IMG/VR virus record: IMGVR_UViG_3300013285_000069
Coordinates: 1-25,652 of that record
DNA length: 25,652 nt
Direction: 5' to 3' (one strand)
From: a virus
Part shown: piece after piece, positions 3,672 to 19,187 of the stretch
Position numbering within the stretch: position 1 is the first letter of the stretch
Layout: each line of letters begins with the position of its first letter
Notes under the pieces: generated by a model
Seen by the model: only the letters and a program-made list of their open reading frames with translations
Told to the model about the DNA's origin: nothing
The model's database searches: none
Translations under genes and position numbers: made by a program

Positions 3672-5477
3672 ATGTCAGGCATAGAAACAGCAGCAAATGA
3701 TTTATTTTTCAAATTGCGTAATCGCTTTCCTCATATCACTATGGGTGATGAAGATAGCACCACTACTAGTAATCCAACGGATGCTAAATTTTTTAGTTTT
3801 GATTACGAAGAAAATGATGTTAAGTTTGGAAATATTACTGCCAGTTTAATTGATGGCCAAAATCTAAAACTATACTTCAGTCAAGACGTTACCAAATACA
3901 TGGACCGTGAAGAAAAGCAAAGTTGGTATAGATTTCTACAGGAAATTAGAAAGTTTGCAAAGAGCCATATGTTAGGTTTAGATGTTCGCGATATCAGTAA
4001 AGATGTCTTAAACGATAAGGATTTAAAGTTTGTGTCAAATCAAAATAAAGAAAAAAGCCAAATTGGCGAAAGTCGTGTGCTATGGGCACGTCGCGGTACA
4101 GTCAGTGAAGGCGATGTAGGCAATGTGCGTGTGCATGTTGTTCATAGCGAGCGTATGGATGAGAATCCAAACAATAGACTACTTAGAGTTGACCGTATTT
4201 TTCTTGTTAACGAATCAGGTGAGCGTTTCCTGTTGCCATTTAAAAGTGTAATGGCAGCTAAGGCCATGGCTAATCACGTTGGCAGAGGTGGCAATCCATA
4301 TGATGGTACAGGTAAGCTGATCAGCACTGCTGTCAATGAGATGAGCAATCTACGTCGCTTTGCCAGTGCTACACGTCGTAAGACTTTTGAGAGTGAAGAT
4401 GCAAATCAAGTAATTACTGCTGCACAGGCAATTAAAGAAAGTATCAAGCGTAGTTTACATCGTTTAGCCAACAATACTAGATTTGATGAGAATTTAGAAG
4501 ATCTAGGCAAGCTACTTGCTGAACAGGAAGATGTAGAAGATATTAAGCCATACTTCACACAAACTGCATACAATGAGAATTTAGACAATTGGATTGGTAG
4601 TGCTGCAAAGGCATTTAAACAGTATAAGGGAAATATTATGGAAAATCTCAGAGAATCAGCTGGCTCTGTAGCACAGAAATTATCAGATCCAAATTGGCTT
4701 ATGGTATTAAAAGATGAACCAAGTGAAGACAGACTTATTACTACCAGCAAGTATGCAGATGGTCGTGCATTACTACGTCGCATCCTAGGAACTATTGCTG
4801 ATCGTGCCAGTATGGATGACAGTGATGTTGCAAATTGGGCAAGTCAAATTGGCCAGGATATGGAACTTGGTAATGCCAGTCAGCAGGATATGCAGATTGC
4901 ATTACAGTTGGCCAAGCGTTATCAAACTGATCTTGCACAGATGGCACAGAGCCCAGAGTATGCCAAGCAGATTCGTGTTGCTGCATTCGGTCAGAAGAAA
5001 GACCTGTATGGTAAGACAAAAGACGAGTCGATGGAATTTGAAGACTATGTAAACGGTGTAGGTGAAGATGGTCCAGTAATTCAACAAAGTGGTAGTAACC
5101 CATTGCCCCCAATGTCAGCAATGGATCGTATTCATCAAAAGCTAGGAACTGGTCCATTTGCTCCTCAGACAGTTCAGCCAACTAATACTGAACCACTGCC
5201 AGGAAGTCCAGGCGCCGGACCAGAAGATAGAGCAGCATTAACTCGCATGATTGATAATGAAAGCGAAGAAATGGACGAAGCTTGTGGTGATACTGCAATG
5301 GACAGAATCAGTGCAAGGGTAGCTCCCAGAGACGGCGAAACAACTCCAATGGAGCGTGTAAGTGAGCGTGTAGCTACTAGAACTTCAGCTGACACTGTTA
5401 ATGAAAAAGCAGTAACTAACGAAGCTCTTGATACTATGTTGTGGTTATCGGGCGTAAAAAAAAAAAGTCTGATGTAA
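3672..5477 (+). CDS. Large probable virion protein, frameshift donor (ORF A)
   Basis: 601 aa with no family I can name. The first 250 or so residues look globular (GNITASLIDGQNLKLYFSQD, SQIGESRVLWARRGT, VHVVHSERM, RLLRVDRIFLVNESGERFLLPF); the middle is helical and charged; residues beyond about 470 are Pro/Gly/Ser-rich and contain three M-(D/E)-R-(I/V) helices starting at M484, M543 and M560. The C-terminus carries LWLSGV (590-595), a variant of the LAG motif shared with the next three proteins. The last codons cross an A11 run (5456-5466), where the zero frame reads GTA AAA AAA AAA AGT and stops 9 nt later. A -1 slip there joins the following frame. Promoter class and neighbours suggest a structural or internal head protein; this is inference. 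Confidence 0.75.
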   Translation: MSGIETAANDLFFKLRNRFPHITMGDEDSTTTSNPTDAKFFSFDYEENDVKFGNITASLIDGQNLKLYFSQDVTKYMDREEKQSWYRFLQEIRKFAKSHMLGLDVRDISKDVLNDKDLKFVSNQNKEKSQIGESRVLWARRGTVSEGDVGNVRVHVVHSERMDENPNNRLLRVDRIFLVNESGERFLLPFKSVMAAKAMANHVGRGGNPYDGTGKLISTAVNEMSNLRRFASATRRKTFESEDANQVITAAQAIKESIKRSLHRLANNTRFDENLEDLGKLLAEQEDVEDIKPYFTQTAYNENLDNWIGSAAKAFKQYKGNIMENLRESAGSVAQKLSDPNWLMVLKDEPSEDRLITTSKYADGRALLRRILGTIADRASMDDSDVANWASQIGQDMELGNASQQDMQIALQLAKRYQTDLAQMAQSPEYAKQIRVAAFGQKKDLYGKTKDESMEFEDYVNGVGEDGPVIQQSGSNPLPPMSAMDRIHQKLGTGPFAPQTVQPTNTEPLPGSPGAGPEDRAALTRMIDNESEEMDEACGDTAMDRISARVAPRDGETTPMERVSERVATRTSADTVNEKAVTNEALDTMLWLSGVKKKSLM

Positions 5478-5992
5478 GCGAAGATGTTCCTGACGTTGAA
5501 TTAACAAAACCTAAATTTTCATTTAGTCCAAATGATAACAAATTTACTCAACTGCCAGACAAGGGGTTTTCGCCTGCCCCTAACATCGAACCTCCATCAA
5601 CGGCGCCGCCTACAAGTTCAGGGCCATTTAATTTAGGACCACCGGATCCAGTAGGACCAAATCCCAAAGCACCTTTTGAACCTAAAATATCTCCAGATGA
5701 AATTAGAGAACCTAATAAATTTAGTATAGGTGATACATTAAAAAGTATAGCAACAAAAGCATTGCCTAGAGTAGCAGGTGGTGCATTAGGTACTATACTA
5801 GATCCAACTCCAGCAGGTCAAGGCGACACAGGCCCACTTGATAAAGCTGCTAGTGCTATGTTTAATCCAACTCCTATATCAAAACAAAATGCTATGATGC
5901 CAGGAAAAACTGCCGACGCTATGCCTGCAGGAACTTTAACAAATCCAAATTTAGTTCGTATGAGAGATCTAGCTGGAATAGGAAGAAAGTAA
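5441..5992 (+). CDS. Pro-rich -1 frame ORF, probably fused to ORF A by frameshift (ORF B)
   Basis: The open frame runs from a GTG at 5441 (183 codons), but it has no Shine-Dalgarno and no ATG start, and it overlaps the end of ORF A. It is in the -1 frame relative to ORF A, and both share the A11 run at 5456-5466, which contains the classic slippery pattern A-AAA-AAA in the ORF A frame. The likely product is therefore a fusion of about 770 aa, ORF A continuing as KKKSDVSEDVPDVE. The extension is Pro/Gly-rich (SGPFNLGPPDPVGPNPKAP), has a Gly/Ala-hydrophobic stretch (ALPRVAGGALGTI) and ends with RMRDLAGIGRK, a LAG motif (L177-I180). Alternatives: transcriptional slippage on the A run, a homopolymer sequencing error (12 A would fuse the frames), or weak independent GTG initiation. 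Confidence 0.7.
   Translation: MVIGRKKKKSDVSEDVPDVELTKPKFSFSPNDNKFTQLPDKGFSPAPNIEPPSTAPPTSSGPFNLGPPDPVGPNPKAPFEPKISPDEIREPNKFSIGDTLKSIATKALPRVAGGALGTILDPTPAGQGDTGPLDKAASAMFNPTPISKQNAMMPGKTADAMPAGTLTNPNLVRMRDLAGIGRK
5456..5466 (+). promoter_or_regulatory. A11 slippery run, candidate -1 frameshift site
   Basis: Eleven A residues follow GGCGT and precede GTCTGATGTAA. In the ORF A frame the codons are GTA AAA AAA AAA AGT CTG ATG TAA; slipping back one base gives AAG TCT GAT GTA and opens the 552-nt downstream frame. I see no strong downstream stem-loop and no clear upstream Shine-Dalgarno stimulator. RNA polymerase slippage is as plausible as ribosomal slippage. Confidence 0.6.
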
Positions 5993-5993
5993 T

Positions 5994-8069
5994 ATGGATA
6001 AGAAATTAAATGAAGATTTAAACCGTATTAGAAAGCTATCTGGCTTAGTCGAAGACGATAGAACTTGGACAGAAAGATTGCCAGATGGTACGGTAAGAAC
6101 ACATCGATATGGATATAGTGATGAAAAGCCTGGCTATAATGGATACAATGATATAGGTGATGAAGGTAATGGACCAAGTAAAGGTTATGGTCTAGGAAGT
6201 GGACAATATGGAACAGGGACAGGTTCTGGATCTGCTGGCATTGGCTATGGGTCGGGCAATAGCGGCACTGGATTTGGTCAAGGCAACAGTCAAGGATCAA
6301 GCAGACAAGGAACTGGAAGTGGTAGCGGCTACGGACAAACGCAGGGGTTACCTGGTGGAGGCGCCGGTTCTTCCCCATCAGTGGGTGTCGGAAGTGGCAC
6401 AACAATTCAAAGATTACCCAGTGGCGGAACTATAACATCAACAATCACTGGCGGGTATCCTGGAGAATATTCTGATTCAGATTACGATGAGCCAGTAGCA
6501 AAACCTAGTAAAAATAGTAAAAGCAAACAACAACGTCCTGATCCGGAAGATGATCCTAGTTATGATGCTTATCCTGAAGTACCAAAAAATCAATATAAAG
6601 ATATGTCTAAGGAACCATCTCCATATGTAAATCCATCATGGCAGAAAGAACAAGATAGAATAAAACAACAACAGCAACAGCCATTACCTAGTGCTACTAC
6701 TTCGTTAGGCAAGGTTCCTCCTAAAGAACCTGTTAAAGTTGAGCCTTCTAAAGAAGTTCCAACATTACCCAGTTCTACTACTTCTCTAGGTAAAGCTCCG
6801 CCTACTAGTATTGCAAAAGACTTATTATTAAAGGAGCCTCCTAAAGAAGTTCCAGCATTACCTAATGCTACTAGCTCTTTAGGTAAACTTCCAACACCTG
6901 CTCCTAAAATTGAGCCACCCAAGCAGGAACCTGCTAAAAATGAGCTACCTAAAGAAGTTCCAACATTACCTAGTGCTACTACTTCGTTAGGTAAACTTCC
7001 ACCTAAACCAATGCCTAAAACACCTGAGACAACAGTTGTTAAGCATAATGAGAAACCATCGGATGATACTATTACTCCTTCACATCCAGGAATAACTGTT
7101 AATGCACCTACTGACAGCAAGCCGGTAGATACTTCAACTGTTGGTTCTGGTATAACCACTCCAGCAGCTATTCCTGCTCCTCCAGTAACTAGCCCTAAAA
7201 TAGATCTTCCAGTTGTTGACTTAACACCTACACACCCTGATAGACCTACAAAACCAGATTCAATGACACCTGATGCAGTTGACCTTCACATGCTTCAAGA
7301 ACCTCCAAGTAAAGAACCGGGAGTTGCACAACAGATATTATTACCTAAAAATGAACCTACACCACCAACTAATCCAACTAAACCAGCTGATCAACCTGCT
7401 AATATAGAACTTATGCCTATGAGCAAGGATGATGCAGATAAAGTGTTTGGTAAAATGCCTGGTTCATCAAATCCTTCTCCAAAACCTTCAGCAGCTGGCG
7501 CTGGTAGTGGTTCACCTGGTGATAGTGCAAATGGAACAAGCGGTGCAAGCGGAGAAAAAGGTGGAGGGGAAAAGGGTGGAAAATATATTCCAATTACTCC
7601 TAAGACAATGGGTTCTCCTGTAAGTGATCAACCAAGTTGGGCTGCACAACAACGTGCTTCTCAAGGTAAACCACTGGCTGGCGATCCTGAGATTAAAAAA
7701 CCCGAAGATATATCTGGAGCTAAAGGGTCTATACAGGCACCAAATGATGCAAATGCAGATATTATATCAAAAGGTAATAAAGCAACTATAAACATGTCTC
7801 CAGCTGATGCAGCTAAAGCACAGACTAATGTGTTTAAACCAGAAAGTCCTGGGACAGAAACTCCAGTGGATACTACACTGCCAGATGACGGAGCTCGTAT
7901 AATAGATATTAAAGGACCTGGCAATAAAAGCGAAAGCATGGAGCGTATGCTTCAGTTGGCTGGAATTAAAGAAAGCACCAGAGTAGAGCGTCAATTTTTA
8001 ACAGAATCTAGTTTACCTAAAACAAATAGTATAGCTGATACATTTAAGCGACTAGCTGGTCTGAAATAA
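5994..8069 (+). CDS. Low-complexity Gly/Pro-rich probable virion protein with terminal LAG motifs (ORF C)
   Basis: 691 aa, almost wholly low complexity. The N-terminus has RIRKLSGLVED (11-21): a LAG-type motif followed by L-V-E, which fits the T4 prohead-protease pattern (L/I)xE. Residues about 56-125 are Gly/Ser/Gln-rich. Four copies of LP(S/N)(A/S)T(T/S)SLGK(V/A/L)P occur at about 231-242, 258-269, 289-300 and 325-336, separated by EPPKEVP-type linkers. The rest is a Pro/Lys/Thr-rich linker. The C-terminus holds LQLAGIKES (653-661), then FLTESS (668-673, another LxE) and finally FKRLAGLK (684-691), nearly identical to the end of ORF D. The start is one base after the ORF B stop, with GGAAGAAAG as Shine-Dalgarno. 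No enzymatic domain is visible. Probably a disordered or fibrous virion or scaffold-core protein. Confidence 0.75.
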   Translation: MDKKLNEDLNRIRKLSGLVEDDRTWTERLPDGTVRTHRYGYSDEKPGYNGYNDIGDEGNGPSKGYGLGSGQYGTGTGSGSAGIGYGSGNSGTGFGQGNSQGSSRQGTGSGSGYGQTQGLPGGGAGSSPSVGVGSGTTIQRLPSGGTITSTITGGYPGEYSDSDYDEPVAKPSKNSKSKQQRPDPEDDPSYDAYPEVPKNQYKDMSKEPSPYVNPSWQKEQDRIKQQQQQPLPSATTSLGKVPPKEPVKVEPSKEVPTLPSSTTSLGKAPPTSIAKDLLLKEPPKEVPALPNATSSLGKLPTPAPKIEPPKQEPAKNELPKEVPTLPSATTSLGKLPPKPMPKTPETTVVKHNEKPSDDTITPSHPGITVNAPTDSKPVDTSTVGSGITTPAAIPAPPVTSPKIDLPVVDLTPTHPDRPTKPDSMTPDAVDLHMLQEPPSKEPGVAQQILLPKNEPTPPTNPTKPADQPANIELMPMSKDDADKVFGKMPGSSNPSPKPSAAGAGSGSPGDSANGTSGASGEKGGGEKGGKYIPITPKTMGSPVSDQPSWAAQQRASQGKPLAGDPEIKKPEDISGAKGSIQAPNDANADIISKGNKATINMSPADAAKAQTNVFKPESPGTETPVDTTLPDDGARIIDIKGPGNKSESMERMLQLAGIKESTRVERQFLTESSLPKTNSIADTFKRLAGLK
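6684..7001 (+). repeat. Four imperfect coding repeats (SLGK-P units)
   Basis: Within ORF C, four units encode LP-(S/N)-(A/S)-T-(T/S)-SLGK followed by V/A/L-P, spaced by 27, 31 and 36 residues. Nucleotide identity between copies is high (for example the shared ATTACC-AGT-CTACTACTTC stretches), which suggests repeat expansion by recombination. Confidence 0.7.
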
Positions 8070-8072
8070 ATA
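8065..8072 (+). promoter_or_regulatory. T4-like late promoter overlapping ORF C stop
   Basis: AATAAATA includes the TAA stop of ORF C (8067-8069). The predicted start at about 8078 leaves a short leader containing the Shine-Dalgarno CGGAG (8081-8085) before the ATG at 8092. Unlike the leaderless group, this gene uses a normal ribosome binding site. Confidence 0.6.
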
Positions 8073-8091
8073 GTATATCACGGAGATTAAA

Positions 8092-9795
8092 ATGGCCAAC
8101 GGCAAAAGAGAATTAATTGAAGATATTAGCGACATTCGTCGACTAGCTGGGCTGTCAGAAGCTCCTAAAAAACCAGCATCAAATCCTCAAGACATTGAAG
8201 GTAAGGGAGATTTAGGTGGTATATTTGGCAATCCTAAAGGCAGTGATTATCAGTCAAAAGGCGGACAAGTTGTTAGTCCTCAAGGCAAGGTAAATTGGGG
8301 CGATCCAGATAGTGCATCTGATTTCTTCCGTGCTGATAAGATGCAACAAGCTCAGCAAGCACAAGCTGAACCTGCACCAAAAGCAGCAGCACCAAAAGCA
8401 CCAGCACAATCAGTTGATGATATTAAAGCTTTCCAACGTGCAAATGGTCTTTCCCCAGATGGCATTGTTGGTCCCAAAACTAGAGAAGCTCAAGCTAGAG
8501 CTAATTCGACTCCTAAAGATCAAAGAAATACAATTGGCGGCGTAGCTCCTGAATTATCAACAGCACGTTATGATATGCCAGATAAGCCAACTGATACTGA
8601 AAAAGCTTTACAGTATCCACAAGGCGGTCCACCGCAGGCACAGACAAAACCGCAAGGTTCAGTTTATGCTCCACCGGCAGTACCAGGTACAGACACTGTT
8701 CCGCAGTCAATGTATAGAATTCCAGGTAGCGATATTGCTAATCCAGGTGTTCAAAAGCCAACACAAAGTATTACTAATCAACCACCTGCGGCAACTACAC
8801 CTAGACAACCTGAGATGATTAGCGATCCAGATAAATCTAGAAATACTTCCCCAAAAGAAGCGCCACCTCCATTACCTAGTCCCAAACCATTTGTTGAACC
8901 AAAAACATTTACTCCACCAGATAAAAAACCAGCAGCATCAAACGCTCCATATTCGCCCGGCGGCGGCGCAGTTGATGATAAGCGCACTTTCTTACAAAGA
9001 AATCTTCCAAATGCACTTGGCGGTTTAGATGCACCTCCTCAAATCAATCCATCAGCACCTAAACTAGAAATACCAAAAAATATAGCACCTGCTCCTATGC
9101 CAGTGATTAGAACTCCTACACCAAATGTTGACAATATGCCTGTTCAACAATTTAAAGGTCCTAACGTAGATCCAGGCATGGATGCAACTAACAAGCTACC
9201 AAAAATTGAACCTTTTAAAGGCGACATGGGAGATTCATTCACCGGCAGTGCTGGGCCCACACCTAAGGCTACAGCCCCTAAGCCGCAAGCAAACCTAAAT
9301 CGTTCTAGAGATGATATTAATTTTGATACTGCTGACAAAGATCCCGATACAATGAAAGACATTGTTAAGGAACTACGACAAATGGCTGGTATTCCAGAAG
9401 ACGGCATACCAGGACAGGGTATGGCACAGGAAGCAATGAATCGTTACGAGTCAGAAGAAAAAATGGATGAAGAAGATGAAATGGAAGAAGGTAACGAATT
9501 CTCCGGCGCATTAGCAAAAGCAAAGGCAACACATCAAGATAAATTTGAAGTTGGCGGAAAAACATATGATGTAAAAGAAGCTCAGGAGCGCACAATGAGT
9601 CGTGCAGCCAAGGGTTATGAAAAGTATGGCAAAGAAGGCATGAAAGCTCTGGCTAAAGCAGGCAAAGAAGGCAAAGATCTAGACAAAGTCAGAGACAAGT
9701 ACAACAAGTATGATGATAAAGTAGAAGAAGGCATCGAAGTAAATCCAATTAACGATAGCTTGGCTTTGATCAAGAGATTAGCAGGTCTAAAATAA
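8092..9795 (+). CDS. Probable virion protein with peptidoglycan-binding domain and LAG motifs (ORF D)
   Basis: 567 aa. The N-terminal tag DIRRLAGLSEAPKK (14-27) combines a LAG motif with L-S-E followed by A, a close match to the T4 gp21 protease consensus (L/I)xE|A. Residues about 107-138 (SVDDIKAFQRANGLSPDGIV, then GPKTREA) form a PG_binding_1-type repeat, which binds peptidoglycan. A Pro/Gln-rich linker follows, then LRQMAGIPEDG (428-438), another LAG motif with I-P-E. The C-terminal third has an acidic patch and a segment starting ALAKAKATHQDKFEVGGKTY and containing KGYEKYGKEGMKALAKAGKE, a module I recall in many marine T4-like phage proteins. The last residues are ALIKRLAGLK. Shine-Dalgarno CGGAG, 6 nt from the ATG. 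Likely packaged or structural; a role in crossing the cell wall is inferred from the peptidoglycan domain. Confidence 0.75.
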   Translation: MANGKRELIEDISDIRRLAGLSEAPKKPASNPQDIEGKGDLGGIFGNPKGSDYQSKGGQVVSPQGKVNWGDPDSASDFFRADKMQQAQQAQAEPAPKAAAPKAPAQSVDDIKAFQRANGLSPDGIVGPKTREAQARANSTPKDQRNTIGGVAPELSTARYDMPDKPTDTEKALQYPQGGPPQAQTKPQGSVYAPPAVPGTDTVPQSMYRIPGSDIANPGVQKPTQSITNQPPAATTPRQPEMISDPDKSRNTSPKEAPPPLPSPKPFVEPKTFTPPDKKPAASNAPYSPGGGAVDDKRTFLQRNLPNALGGLDAPPQINPSAPKLEIPKNIAPAPMPVIRTPTPNVDNMPVQQFKGPNVDPGMDATNKLPKIEPFKGDMGDSFTGSAGPTPKATAPKPQANLNRSRDDINFDTADKDPDTMKDIVKELRQMAGIPEDGIPGQGMAQEAMNRYESEEKMDEEDEMEEGNEFSGALAKAKATHQDKFEVGGKTYDVKEAQERTMSRAAKGYEKYGKEGMKALAKAGKEGKDLDKVRDKYNKYDDKVEEGIEVNPINDSLALIKRLAGLK

Positions 9796-16992: not shown

Positions 16993-17021
16993 TTGACTTT
17001 TTCAATGCGATGCAGTAAACT
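16993..17021 (+). promoter_or_regulatory. Sigma70-like promoter of the outer-membrane protein gene
   Basis: TTGACT (16993-16998), 17-bp spacer, TAAACT (17016-17021). Predicted start near 17028. Confidence 0.6.
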
Positions 17022-17022
17022 A

Positions 17023-17030
17023 GATAAATA
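17023..17030 (+). promoter_or_regulatory. T4-like late element (GATAAATA)
   Basis: GATAAATA lies 1 bp downstream of the sigma70 -10, so the gene that follows can be transcribed both early and late. Predicted late start near 17036. Confidence 0.5.
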
Positions 17031-17036
17031 ATAGAC

Positions 17037-17124
17037 GGTTGTTGAGGTGAATTGATTAAATGATTTACTTTAGGAAGTGTCTGTTACTAACAACCCAGCT
17101 GTTTGACAATTTAAAAGTCAACAG
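17037..17124 (+). promoter_or_regulatory. Structured 5' leader of the outer-membrane protein mRNA
   Basis: In the 110-nt leader, GGTTGTT (17037-17043) can pair with AACAACC (17089-17095), and CTGTTTGAC (17099-17107) with GTCAACAG (17117-17124) with one bulge. Both end before the AAAGGAAAAAG ribosome binding site, leaving it single-stranded. No known riboswitch is recognised; mRNA stabilisation is a simple explanation. Confidence 0.4.
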
Positions 17125-17145
17125 TGCAGAAAAAAGGAAAAAGAA

Positions 17146-17724
17146 ATGAAGAAACTTATTACAGCATTGTTTGCCCTCGCGGCAGGCGCATCAGTGGCAG
17201 CCGCTGCTGATCTTCCATCCAAGAGTGCAGCCGCTGCTCCAGCAGTTTCAACAAGTGCTTTTGGACTAAGCGGATGGTATGCCGGCGGTTTTGTCGGTGG
17301 AAACTTCGACGATACTAACAAGTTCAAGTACGACAATACTCCAAAGGTATTTGGTGCTATTGCTGGATACGAGTGGAACAAGTACATCCGCACTGAAGCA
17401 ACGTTCGATTATACCGCTAAGCTAGTCCCAATCACTCCTCCCAAGACTGGACAGACTGCATTTGGTAATGCAGTTGTAAGCTACCCAGTTGGGTTTGGCG
17501 TAACTCCATACCTCTTGGCAGGTGTTGGTTACGGTTGGGGTGCATGGGATAAGGTCGTCGGAAAGAATGATGATCGTACCCTTTACAACATTGGAGCTGG
17601 TCTTCGTTATGACCTTACTAAGAGCTTCGAAGTTGACGGTCGTTACCGTTATGTTAACGGTTTGACTGCGCAGAAGTTCGATAACAACCATGTTGTTACG
17701 CTTGGTGTAAACTACAAGTTCTAA
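17146..17724 (+). CDS. Outer-membrane beta-barrel protein (Omp25/RopB-like)
   Basis: 192 aa. Signal peptide MKKLITALFALAAGASVAAA, cleavage before or within AADLPSK, then an Ala/Ser linker. Mature domain of about 150 aa has eight alternating strands rich in Gly and aromatic residues (GWYAGGFVGGNF, FGAIAGYEW, IRTEATFDYTA, VSYPVGFGVTPYLLAGVGYG, YNIGAGLRYDL, FEVDGRYRYVNG, HVVTLGVNYKF) and ends in Phe, the BAM insertion signal. The AADLP start of the mature part is typical of alphaproteobacterial Omp25/31-type porins. Monocistronic: dual promoter, leader, strong AAGGAAAAAG site and strong terminator, implying high expression. Likely acquired from the host. Possible roles: altering receptor access (superinfection exclusion) or envelope repair; not decided by sequence. 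Confidence 0.9.
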   Translation: MKKLITALFALAAGASVAAAADLPSKSAAAAPAVSTSAFGLSGWYAGGFVGGNFDDTNKFKYDNTPKVFGAIAGYEWNKYIRTEATFDYTAKLVPITPPKTGQTAFGNAVVSYPVGFGVTPYLLAGVGYGWGAWDKVVGKNDDRTLYNIGAGLRYDLTKSFEVDGRYRYVNGLTAQKFDNNHVVTLGVNYKF

Positions 17725-17737
17725 TCTGAACTGGGTG

Positions 17738-17769
17738 AAAAGGTGCTGCTTAGCTGTAGCACCTTTTTT
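17738..17769 (+). terminator. Rho-independent terminator after outer-membrane protein
   Basis: AAAAGGTGCT (17738-17747) pairs with AGCACCTTTT (17758-17767), extended inward by a G-T and a C-G pair around a TTAGCT loop, with the T run included. A strong terminator. Confidence 0.9.
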
Positions 17770-17781
17770 CACGACTTTTAT

Positions 17782-17809
17782 TTGACATTGTTTTTAAACC
17801 TGCTATATT
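17782..17809 (+). promoter_or_regulatory. Sigma70-like early promoter
   Basis: TTGACA (17782-17787), 16 bp, TATATT (17804-17809). Start near 17816, followed by the Shine-Dalgarno GAGGAG (17819-17824). Confidence 0.75.
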
Positions 17810-17832: not shown

Positions 17833-18084
17833 GTGAGAACTAGCAGTGAAATTGTCGAAGATCTTATTGATTCTTTAGAGAAGATGATCGACGCACAGGA
17901 TGATATGTGGCAGGAAGAGAAGCATTGTAATTATAAACTACAGAATAAGATTCGAGAAGAAAGACTAATTCCTGCTAAGTTAGAGTTCAAGACTATGCTT
18001 GACGAGTATATTGATCGTCGAATTGAAACATATTGTATCAAGCACTTGATTACCAGGACTACCTTTGTAGGAGAACCTGGATGA
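17833..18084 (+). CDS. Small coiled-coil hypothetical protein
   Basis: 83 aa from a GTG at 17833, decided by GAGGAG 8 nt upstream. Highly charged helix: TSSEIVEDLIDSLEKMIDAQ with heptad-like hydrophobics, then EEKHCNYKLQNKIREERL. No membrane segment. Not recognised. It is the first gene of a two-gene early operon and is coupled to the next gene by an ATGA overlap, so the two products may act together. Confidence 0.75.
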   Translation: MRTSSEIVEDLIDSLEKMIDAQDDMWQEEKHCNYKLQNKIREERLIPAKLEFKTMLDEYIDRRIETYCIKHLITRTTFVGEPG

Positions 18085-18386
18085 AATTTGTCACCGTAAT
18101 GGATATGTGGCTGCTGATCTGTAATATCGGCTTGCTGTGTTGTCTAATTTATGTTGTGCGTCAAATGATAGCGTTAATGAAAGAGTTCCAAGCATGGAAA
18201 CATGCTGAAGTTATTGATAAAGAAATGAAGTATGTAGTACAGTTAATTAAAGAAGAAAGAGATAATCTCATAAGCAGCATGACAAATGCTGAAATTGATA
18301 TTAAAACTGAATTCTGCGATGATATCATTGCTCAAATTGAACGTCGCCGTACTAGGAATATTATTGCAGCGGCTCAGTCAAAGTGA
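18081..18386 (+). CDS. Small membrane protein with coiled-coil tail
   Basis: 101 aa. One membrane helix at about 8-32 (MWLLICNIGLLCCLIYVVRQ), then a long charged helix (residues 33-85) with repeated E/K and hydrophobics. ATG 18081 chosen because it overlaps the previous stop (ATGA) and has AGGAGA 6 nt upstream. The layout resembles single-pass inner-membrane regulators or inner-membrane spanins, but the early promoter, absence of an adjacent lysis gene and lack of a lipoprotein partner argue against a spanin. Function unknown; a host-membrane takeover factor is possible. Confidence 0.75.
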   Translation: MKFVTVMDMWLLICNIGLLCCLIYVVRQMIALMKEFQAWKHAEVIDKEMKYVVQLIKEERDNLISSMTNAEIDIKTEFCDDIIAQIERRRTRNIIAAAQSK

Positions 18387-18406: not shown

Positions 18407-18480
18407 GGGGGATTAGCTCATTTGGGTAGAGCGGTAGCTTTGCAAGCTTCAGGCGAACGGTTCGAATCCGTTATCTTCCA
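18407..18480 (+). tRNA. tRNA-Ala (anticodon UGC)
   Basis: Acceptor GGGGGAT (18407-18413) pairs with ATCTTCC (18473-18479), including G3-U70, the alanine identity wobble, and G4-U69. D stem GCTC/GAGC with a GGG-containing loop, anticodon loop TTTGCAA (18439-18445) giving TGC, T stem AACGG/CCGTT with loop TTCGAAT, discriminator A. One T-T mismatch sits in the anticodon stem (18435/18449). The 3' CCA is not encoded. It follows the small early operon and precedes the endonuclease control hairpin. Confidence 0.88.
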
Positions 18481-18489
18481 CATAAGCGG

Positions 18490-18545: not shown

Positions 18546-19187
18546 TTGTTTTACACTATCTATAAAATAACAAATTTAATAAACAACAAATTTTATATAG
18601 GAAAACATCAAACTAATAATGTTGATGATGGGTATATGGGTTCTGGTAAGTTAATTATAGAAGCTATTAAAAAATATGGGGTAGATAATTTCAAGAAAGA
18701 TATACTTTATATATTTGATAACGAAAAAGACATGAATAACGCAGAGAAAGATTTAGTTATTTTATCTGAAAATAGTTACAATCTATGTCCCGGTGGTCGA
18801 GGTGGTTTTGGATACATTAATAAAAATATCGATTTACAACAAAGAAATAGAGATATAAACTCTCGTAAAAATTATAATGATCCAGTATTACGACAACGAC
18901 TTTCTGAAGGACAAAAAAGAGCACTTCCTTTTAGAAAACCCCCAGTGATATCGGATGAATCGAGATCTAAAAAACTTGCACCGTTAAAAAGAGGCAATAC
19001 CCCTGAAGCAATTATAAAGAAAAAAGAAACTTGGAAGAAAAATAATAGAGGCATTGGTAAAAATAATTCTCAATTTGGTACTTGTTGGGTTACGAATGAA
19101 ATAGAAAATAAGAAAATTAAAAAAGAAGAAATTGATTTCTATTTAAATAACGGGTATAATAAAGGTAGAAAGATTAAACATCAATGA
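18546..19187 (+). CDS. GIY-YIG homing endonuclease (Seg/I-TevI-like)
   Basis: 213 aa from a TTG start, fixed by ACGGAG in the hairpin arm. N-terminal nuclease domain (1-85): YTIY (3-6) and FYIG (16-19) are the GIY and YIG elements, GSGKLIIEAIKKYG with KYGVDNFKKDIL is the usual third block, and the Glu in NNAEKDL (about 67) is the metal ligand. The linker and C-terminal DNA-binding part (NSQFGTCWVTNEIENKKIKK and the final YNKGRK) match the repeats seen in phage Seg-like free-standing endonucleases. Codon use is more AT-rich than in neighbours (many AAA/ATA/AAT), consistent with a mobile gene. It cuts an allele lacking it and spreads by recombination. Overlaps the next gene by ATGA. Confidence 0.9.
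   Translation: MFYTIYKITNLINNKFYIGKHQTNNVDDGYMGSGKLIIEAIKKYGVDNFKKDILYIFDNEKDMNNAEKDLVILSENSYNLCPGGRGGFGYINKNIDLQQRNRDINSRKNYNDPVLRQRLSEGQKRALPFRKPPVISDESRSKKLAPLKRGNTPEAIIKKKETWKKNNRGIGKNNSQFGTCWVTNEIENKKIKKEEIDFYLNNGYNKGRKIKHQ

Follow-up and report, generated by a model that had tools for sequence, protein, structure and literature searches.

Outer-membrane proteins encoded by phages recur in viral sequence, yet functional data on them are, to our knowledge, scarce outside the temperate coliphages. One of them, the OmpX/Ail-like Lom protein of the temperate phage lambda, is a small outer-membrane barrel known from lysogens. Another is the PF24653 family of T4-like cyanophages, found in P-SSM2 (two copies), S-RSM4 and S-ShM2, a barrel of about 120 aa with a signal peptide and a final Phe. 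Barrels are also annotated in rhizobial jumbo phages, and a protein of the jumbo phage AP-J-162 that is related to Atu_ph07 bears the annotation outer membrane protein (PMC11242549). In BFVD, 32 viral models matched at E<=1e-3, and several of these carry the name outer membrane protein. Because of PF24653, the BFVD models and the AP-J-162 annotation, phage-encoded barrels have to be regarded as a known kind, and the first-pass annotation of the DNA analysed here was mistaken in calling them rare phage cargo; what is new is the subfamily found in this DNA, together with its cassette.

The window (the whole stretch of DNA analysed, a 25.7-kb viral record) belongs to a T4-like myophage with RecA/UvsX- and UvsY-like genes on board. 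Its terminase shares 54% identity with its counterpart in PA5oct-type Pseudomonas jumbo phages, 51% with that of Sinorhizobium phage Phosso and 48% with that of Agrobacterium phage Atu_ph07. Two different queries of 50,697 phage records with the barrel matched only OC, Phosso and Atu_ph07. Because these named phages all come from Rhizobiales hosts (Agrobacterium, Sinorhizobium and Ochrobactrum), the window phage probably has an alphaproteobacterial host. The alphaproteobacterial setting first proposed for the gene was upheld by these matches and by the similar ADLP starts of two alphaproteobacterial homologues (L044 and L067).

The gene at 17146-17724 (plus strand) encodes an OmpA-like outer-membrane protein of 192 aa with an eight-strand barrel, as indicated by its open reading frame, Pfam, AlphaFold2, structure comparison and the tree described below. 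Residues 1-21 (17146-17208, plus strand) have the sequence pattern of a signal peptide with predicted cleavage before ADLP or DLP; the N-terminus reads MKKLITALFALAAGASVAAA up to the mature start ADLP, which is followed by a 20-residue linker and a barrel that runs to the final NYKF (C-terminus GVNYKF). The protein scored 59.6 bits against PF13505 (OMP_b-brl; curated cut-off 28.7), which its relatives also exceeded, and 33.1 bits against PF01389 (cut-off 21). An AlphaFold2 model built from a ten-sequence alignment contained exactly eight strands, from 43-54 to 182-191, at medium confidence (pLDDT 69.9, pTM 0.66; signal and linker low), and superimposed on the OmpA barrel 1qjp (VIA) with a Z of 18.4 and an rmsd of 2.0 A over 127 residues. 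The signal peptide, barrel, ADLP-type start and terminal Phe remarked upon in the first-pass annotation are therefore all present. The reading frame stops at the last barrel strand and the C-terminal peptidoglycan-binding domain of OmpA is absent (NCBIfam full-length OmpA, 19.6 bits vs 277), so that the protein would have no peptidoglycan anchor. Across 21 phage barrels, the strands were conserved (0.58-0.81) and the predicted outside loops variable (0.34-0.45), a distribution of conserved strands and variable short loops that fits a surface protein. An outer-membrane location is very probable.

The homologues of Phosso (XYS97228), Atu_ph07 (AUZ95410) and OC (QIG65986) share with the window protein the PF13505 barrel, the signal peptide, a terminal aromatic residue and a virus-only branch of the tree, and those of OC and Phosso carry existing annotations as outer membrane or membrane protein; all three are about 30-35% identical to it, lie in another neighbourhood and bear no sign of the leader of the window clade. 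The AP-J-162 protein gp282 probably belongs with these barrels of rhizobial jumbo/T4-like phages. The cyanophage barrel resembles that of the window in being a small signal-peptide barrel ending in Phe from T4-like myophages, but it is the shorter of the two and gave no significant match to the window barrel (not listed at E<=0.1; hhalign probability 14.5%); PF24653 had no match in contig G002 of the clade and gave 17-18 bits with the Phosso homologue (cut-off 27). Lom, likewise a small phage-encoded outer-membrane barrel, showed no significant sequence match (HMM 4.1 bits, hhalign probability 2.1%), and the model shares the general fold of Ail and OmpX (Z about 11-13). No PHROG family matched the protein. 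The transmembrane domain of bacterial OmpA and the alphaproteobacterial PF13505 proteins have the same fold and family; in contrast to them, the window barrel has no periplasmic domain and falls on a branch separate from the sampled bacterial proteins.

The barrel gene was found at the same place in 10/10 close IMG/VR contigs, with promoters, leader and terminator kept and proteins 77-91% identical. Between close relatives dN/dS was 0.055-0.28, and the gene is under purifying selection. Two small genes on the plus strand outside the cassette (17833-18084 and 18081-18386) follow the barrel in 10/10 close relatives, and a scan placed a promoter for them at 17782-17809 (plus strand; TTGACA, 16 nt, TATATT, 11/12), with similar sites in most relatives. 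Every close contig with the second small gene also has the barrel. A search with this neighbour gene yielded 27 distant loci; nine of them (two with the same sequence here) carried a divergent barrel just upstream (E<1e-41), each with similar signals, and the other 18 had no barrel in the stretch inspected, although one of these contigs, G758, has a barrel elsewhere. The function of the barrel would therefore be dispensable in the wider group. The product of 18081-18386 is small, begins MKFVTVMDMWLL, has an N-terminal hydrophobic segment and is kept in 37 viral contigs; it had no match in named phage records, Pfam or PHROG families.

The first-pass annotation had also placed the barrel beside glycan-modifying genes, and this is partly real in the window, where an epimerase/RmlD-like gene, a UDP-galactopyranose mutase and a methyltransferase lie near it. 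L001 and L006/L007 have the mutase, whereas L002, L003, L004 and L008 lack it between the epimerase and methyltransferase genes. The sugar genes being only partly conserved among close loci, a fixed link between barrel and glycan genes was discarded as a generalisation; the barrel persists where they vary.

Two kinds of putative promoter precede the gene. A sigma70-like site on the plus strand (16993-17021; TTGACT, 17-nt spacer, TAAACT) matches the consensus at 9/12 positions, and a T4-late-like promoter, GATAAATA (17023-17030, plus strand), overlaps its start region and was recognised by conservation and placement. In the window alone this dual pattern is weak, because a 9/12 match is not beyond chance and the scan found fewer promoter-like sites than in shuffles. 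Most close relatives have an aligned sigma70-like site with 17-nt spacing and a stronger -10 (TATATT/TATTAT); in three, the top-scoring site differs from the aligned one, which is still visible. The late box reads ATAAATA in 8/9 and TAAATA in 9/9 close genes compared. Upstream of 17 non-redundant phage barrel genes, which share ancestry and hence are not independent, ATAAATA was found in 15/17 (chance 7.9% each) and TAAATA in 17/17, while 15/17 had a sigma70-like site scoring 10/12 or better (chance 8.7% in shuffles); the sequence pattern of the early/late promoter pair proposed at the outset recurs across the family. The two boxes overlap in the close clade; in the majority of distant relatives they are separate, with the late box about 110 nt and the sigma70 box about 65 nt upstream of the ATG.

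A T4-type late promoter consists of a TATAAATA-like box immediately upstream of the transcription start and is read with gp55; here the box is conserved and well placed, and the start site is predicted. The window has seven copies of ATAAATA (3626, 8066, 9884, 17024, 18499, 21728 and 22099), all in sense and 18-122 nt before a gene, a placement for which 12.5% of strand-positions would qualify. The orientation and position of all seven support a T4-late role, and in this phage group the box is probably a marker of late genes. The late sigma (gp55 family) is present in Phosso, Atu_ph07 and OC, and it was not found in the fragments of the window's own clade. The Phosso match (222719-223072, L216) contains one in-frame TAA, possibly reflecting an intron, a frameshift or a split gene. 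The use of C-ending NNY codons in the barrel gene (0.55) was the highest of the 25 genes measured (gp32 0.41, most about 0.2), which fits high expression and also a foreign origin. The barrel is apparently made in large amounts during infection.

The mRNA leader has a conserved architecture. In helix A (17029-17086, plus strand), detected by folding and comparison, TAATAGAC (17029-17036) pairs with GTCTGTTA (17079-17086) and closes a hairpin of variable sequence, and 6-8 of the 8 pairs are retained in every close relative. Complementary to each other and crossing helix A are GGTTGT (17037-17042) and ACAACC (17090-17095; both plus strand); because both are near-invariant, their pairing is unproved by covariation, and RNAalifold favoured this GGUUGU/ACAACC helix free of covariation. 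Such an arrangement suggests a pseudoknot, a switch or an alternative fold. In hairpin C (17099-17124, plus strand; CTGTTTGAC...GTCAACAG), two pairs have changed on both sides. Common to all nine close genes compared are TAATAGAC with a TCTAT-type partner, the variable hairpin, CAACCCAGCTG and the second hairpin. None of 200 shuffles folded as well as the window leader (z -3.9 over 117 nt and -5.2 over 120 nt); the leaders of other members gave z of -0.9 to -3.6, not each significant alone, and apical hairpins taken in isolation had no clear advantage over shuffles. The case for a leader structure is thus drawn from the architecture shared across relatives. Because a leader-pattern scan of viral contigs matched solely contigs with the barrel locus, the leader is no general phage element. 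In Rfam, the only match was a tRNA and there was no family for the leader; a tRNA-Ala (TGC) gene lies shortly downstream of the barrel region (18407-18481).

A Shine-Dalgarno sequence conserved in relatives, AAGGA (17134-17138, plus strand), stands 7 nt before the ATG. The gene ends in an intrinsic terminator read by eye (AAAAGGTGCT / AGCACCTTTT; 17738-17769, plus strand), with a 10-bp stem and a 10-nt loop at 17738-17767 followed by a T-run; the automatic scan missed it because it allowed loops of 3-8 nt only. Close and distant relatives alike have an equivalent terminator after the stop codon. The structured leader, ribosome binding site and terminator were therefore correctly recognised at first pass, as were the limits of the cassette (16993-17769), which run from the first base of the -35 TTGACT to the end of the T-run.

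A rather doubtful possibility is that the leader folds differently in early and late transcripts and so governs the synthesis of an old virus-specific barrel family kept by T4-like/jumbo phages of alphaproteobacteria. With a late start, the 5' strand of helix A would be missing from the transcript and GGUUGU would be available for pairing with ACAACC. If true, this would be a viral self-regulated system for host-surface remodelling.

The function favoured here, with a probability of roughly 0.45, is that the barrel shields the surface of the infected cell, blocking superinfection or readsorption to debris. Host RNA polymerase would transcribe the gene early from the sigma70-like promoter and the phage-modified polymerase again late from the ATAAATA promoter, and the folded leader would probably stabilise or tune the mRNA. 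After Sec-dependent passage of the protein across the inner membrane, the BAM machinery of the host would fold it into the outer membrane of the cell, where it would form a closed OmpA-type barrel that exposes four short variable loops on the outside. In bulk, it may change or shield the surface so that neither other phages nor the phage's own progeny adsorb. The superinfection block or receptor change proposed earlier is plausible, and surface modification against competitors is a recognised strategy of jumbo phages (PMC7824862). Counting against shielding, the loops are short and show no striking hypervariability, and the wider group would be able to do without the barrel. Because an eight-strand barrel of the OmpA type does not form a wide channel, nutrient uptake is unlikely. 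Searches for papers on phage-encoded porins and on PA-2/NmpC yielded nothing usable. Because the gene is well conserved and has homologues in the culturable phages Atu_ph07, Phosso and OC, as well as clear expression signals, remodelling of the host surface by virulent phages' own barrels is directly testable.

The main rival, itself unlikely, is that the barrel replaces a host OmpA-type protein lost when host synthesis stops and stabilises the outer membrane during a long infection, up to timed lysis. Late genes of T4-like phages are made while host synthesis is off, and this, the early and late promoters and the closed, OmpA-type rather than porin-like barrel would all suit such envelope support; the protein, however, lacks the periplasmic peptidoglycan-binding domain by which OmpA ties the membrane to the wall.

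The origin of the gene bears on a further, improbable explanation, in which it is a passenger recently taken from an alphaproteobacterial host (Omp25/RopB type) and has no phage-specific role. The ADLP starts of L044 and L067 would agree with this, as would a GC content of 0.47 against 0.39 for the window. In a maximum-likelihood tree, however, all 20 phage proteins fell on one side of a well-supported branch (98/93) from 37 bacterial proteins; the bacterial set was sampled from about 780 genomes with a phage-weighted profile and has neither a named Omp25 nor a named RopB, and several long-branch rows occur. No close bacterial relative emerged from two pattern-based scans of 84,980 species (the first gave none, the second two partial ones), the best bacterial matches in the genome scan were just 34-37% identical over part of the length, and a plasmid scan gave no barrel relative. 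The gene has moreover been long kept, under purifying selection and with phage-type promoters. No Omp25/RopB-type donor was found in this sample, contrary to the first expectation. A virus-only clade, which had been named beforehand as evidence against the outer-membrane reading, was obtained as far as sampled; it argues against a recent donor and not against that location. The best reading of these data is an old, virus-specific OmpA-like family; since the branch that contains the protein and its relatives is exclusively viral, a role in coating or remodelling the infected-cell surface is probable.

Least probable of all is that the protein is carried on or in the particle, as might be indicated by the late-type promoter and by the listing of gp282 (171 aa), an 'outer membrane protein' like that of Atu_ph07, in the AP-J-162 table of structural/surface proteins (PMC11242549), since the signal peptide and C-terminal Phe direct it to the outer membrane and most of the 131 virion proteins of Atu_ph07 come from clusters CDS 31-76, 170-215 and 284-329 (PMC6102473), with the barrel gene outside these three, about 20 genes before CDS 671.

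Elsewhere in the window, a GIY-YIG homing endonuclease gene (18546-19187) lies between two conserved genes and matched no counterpart in the close relatives examined. Proline-/glutamine-rich proteins are encoded side by side at 5441-9795, and a short RxLAG(I/L)-like motif is repeated near their ends (RIRKLSGLVE, IRRLAGLSE, MLQLAGIKE, IKRLAGLK), which could be a targeting or docking peptide.
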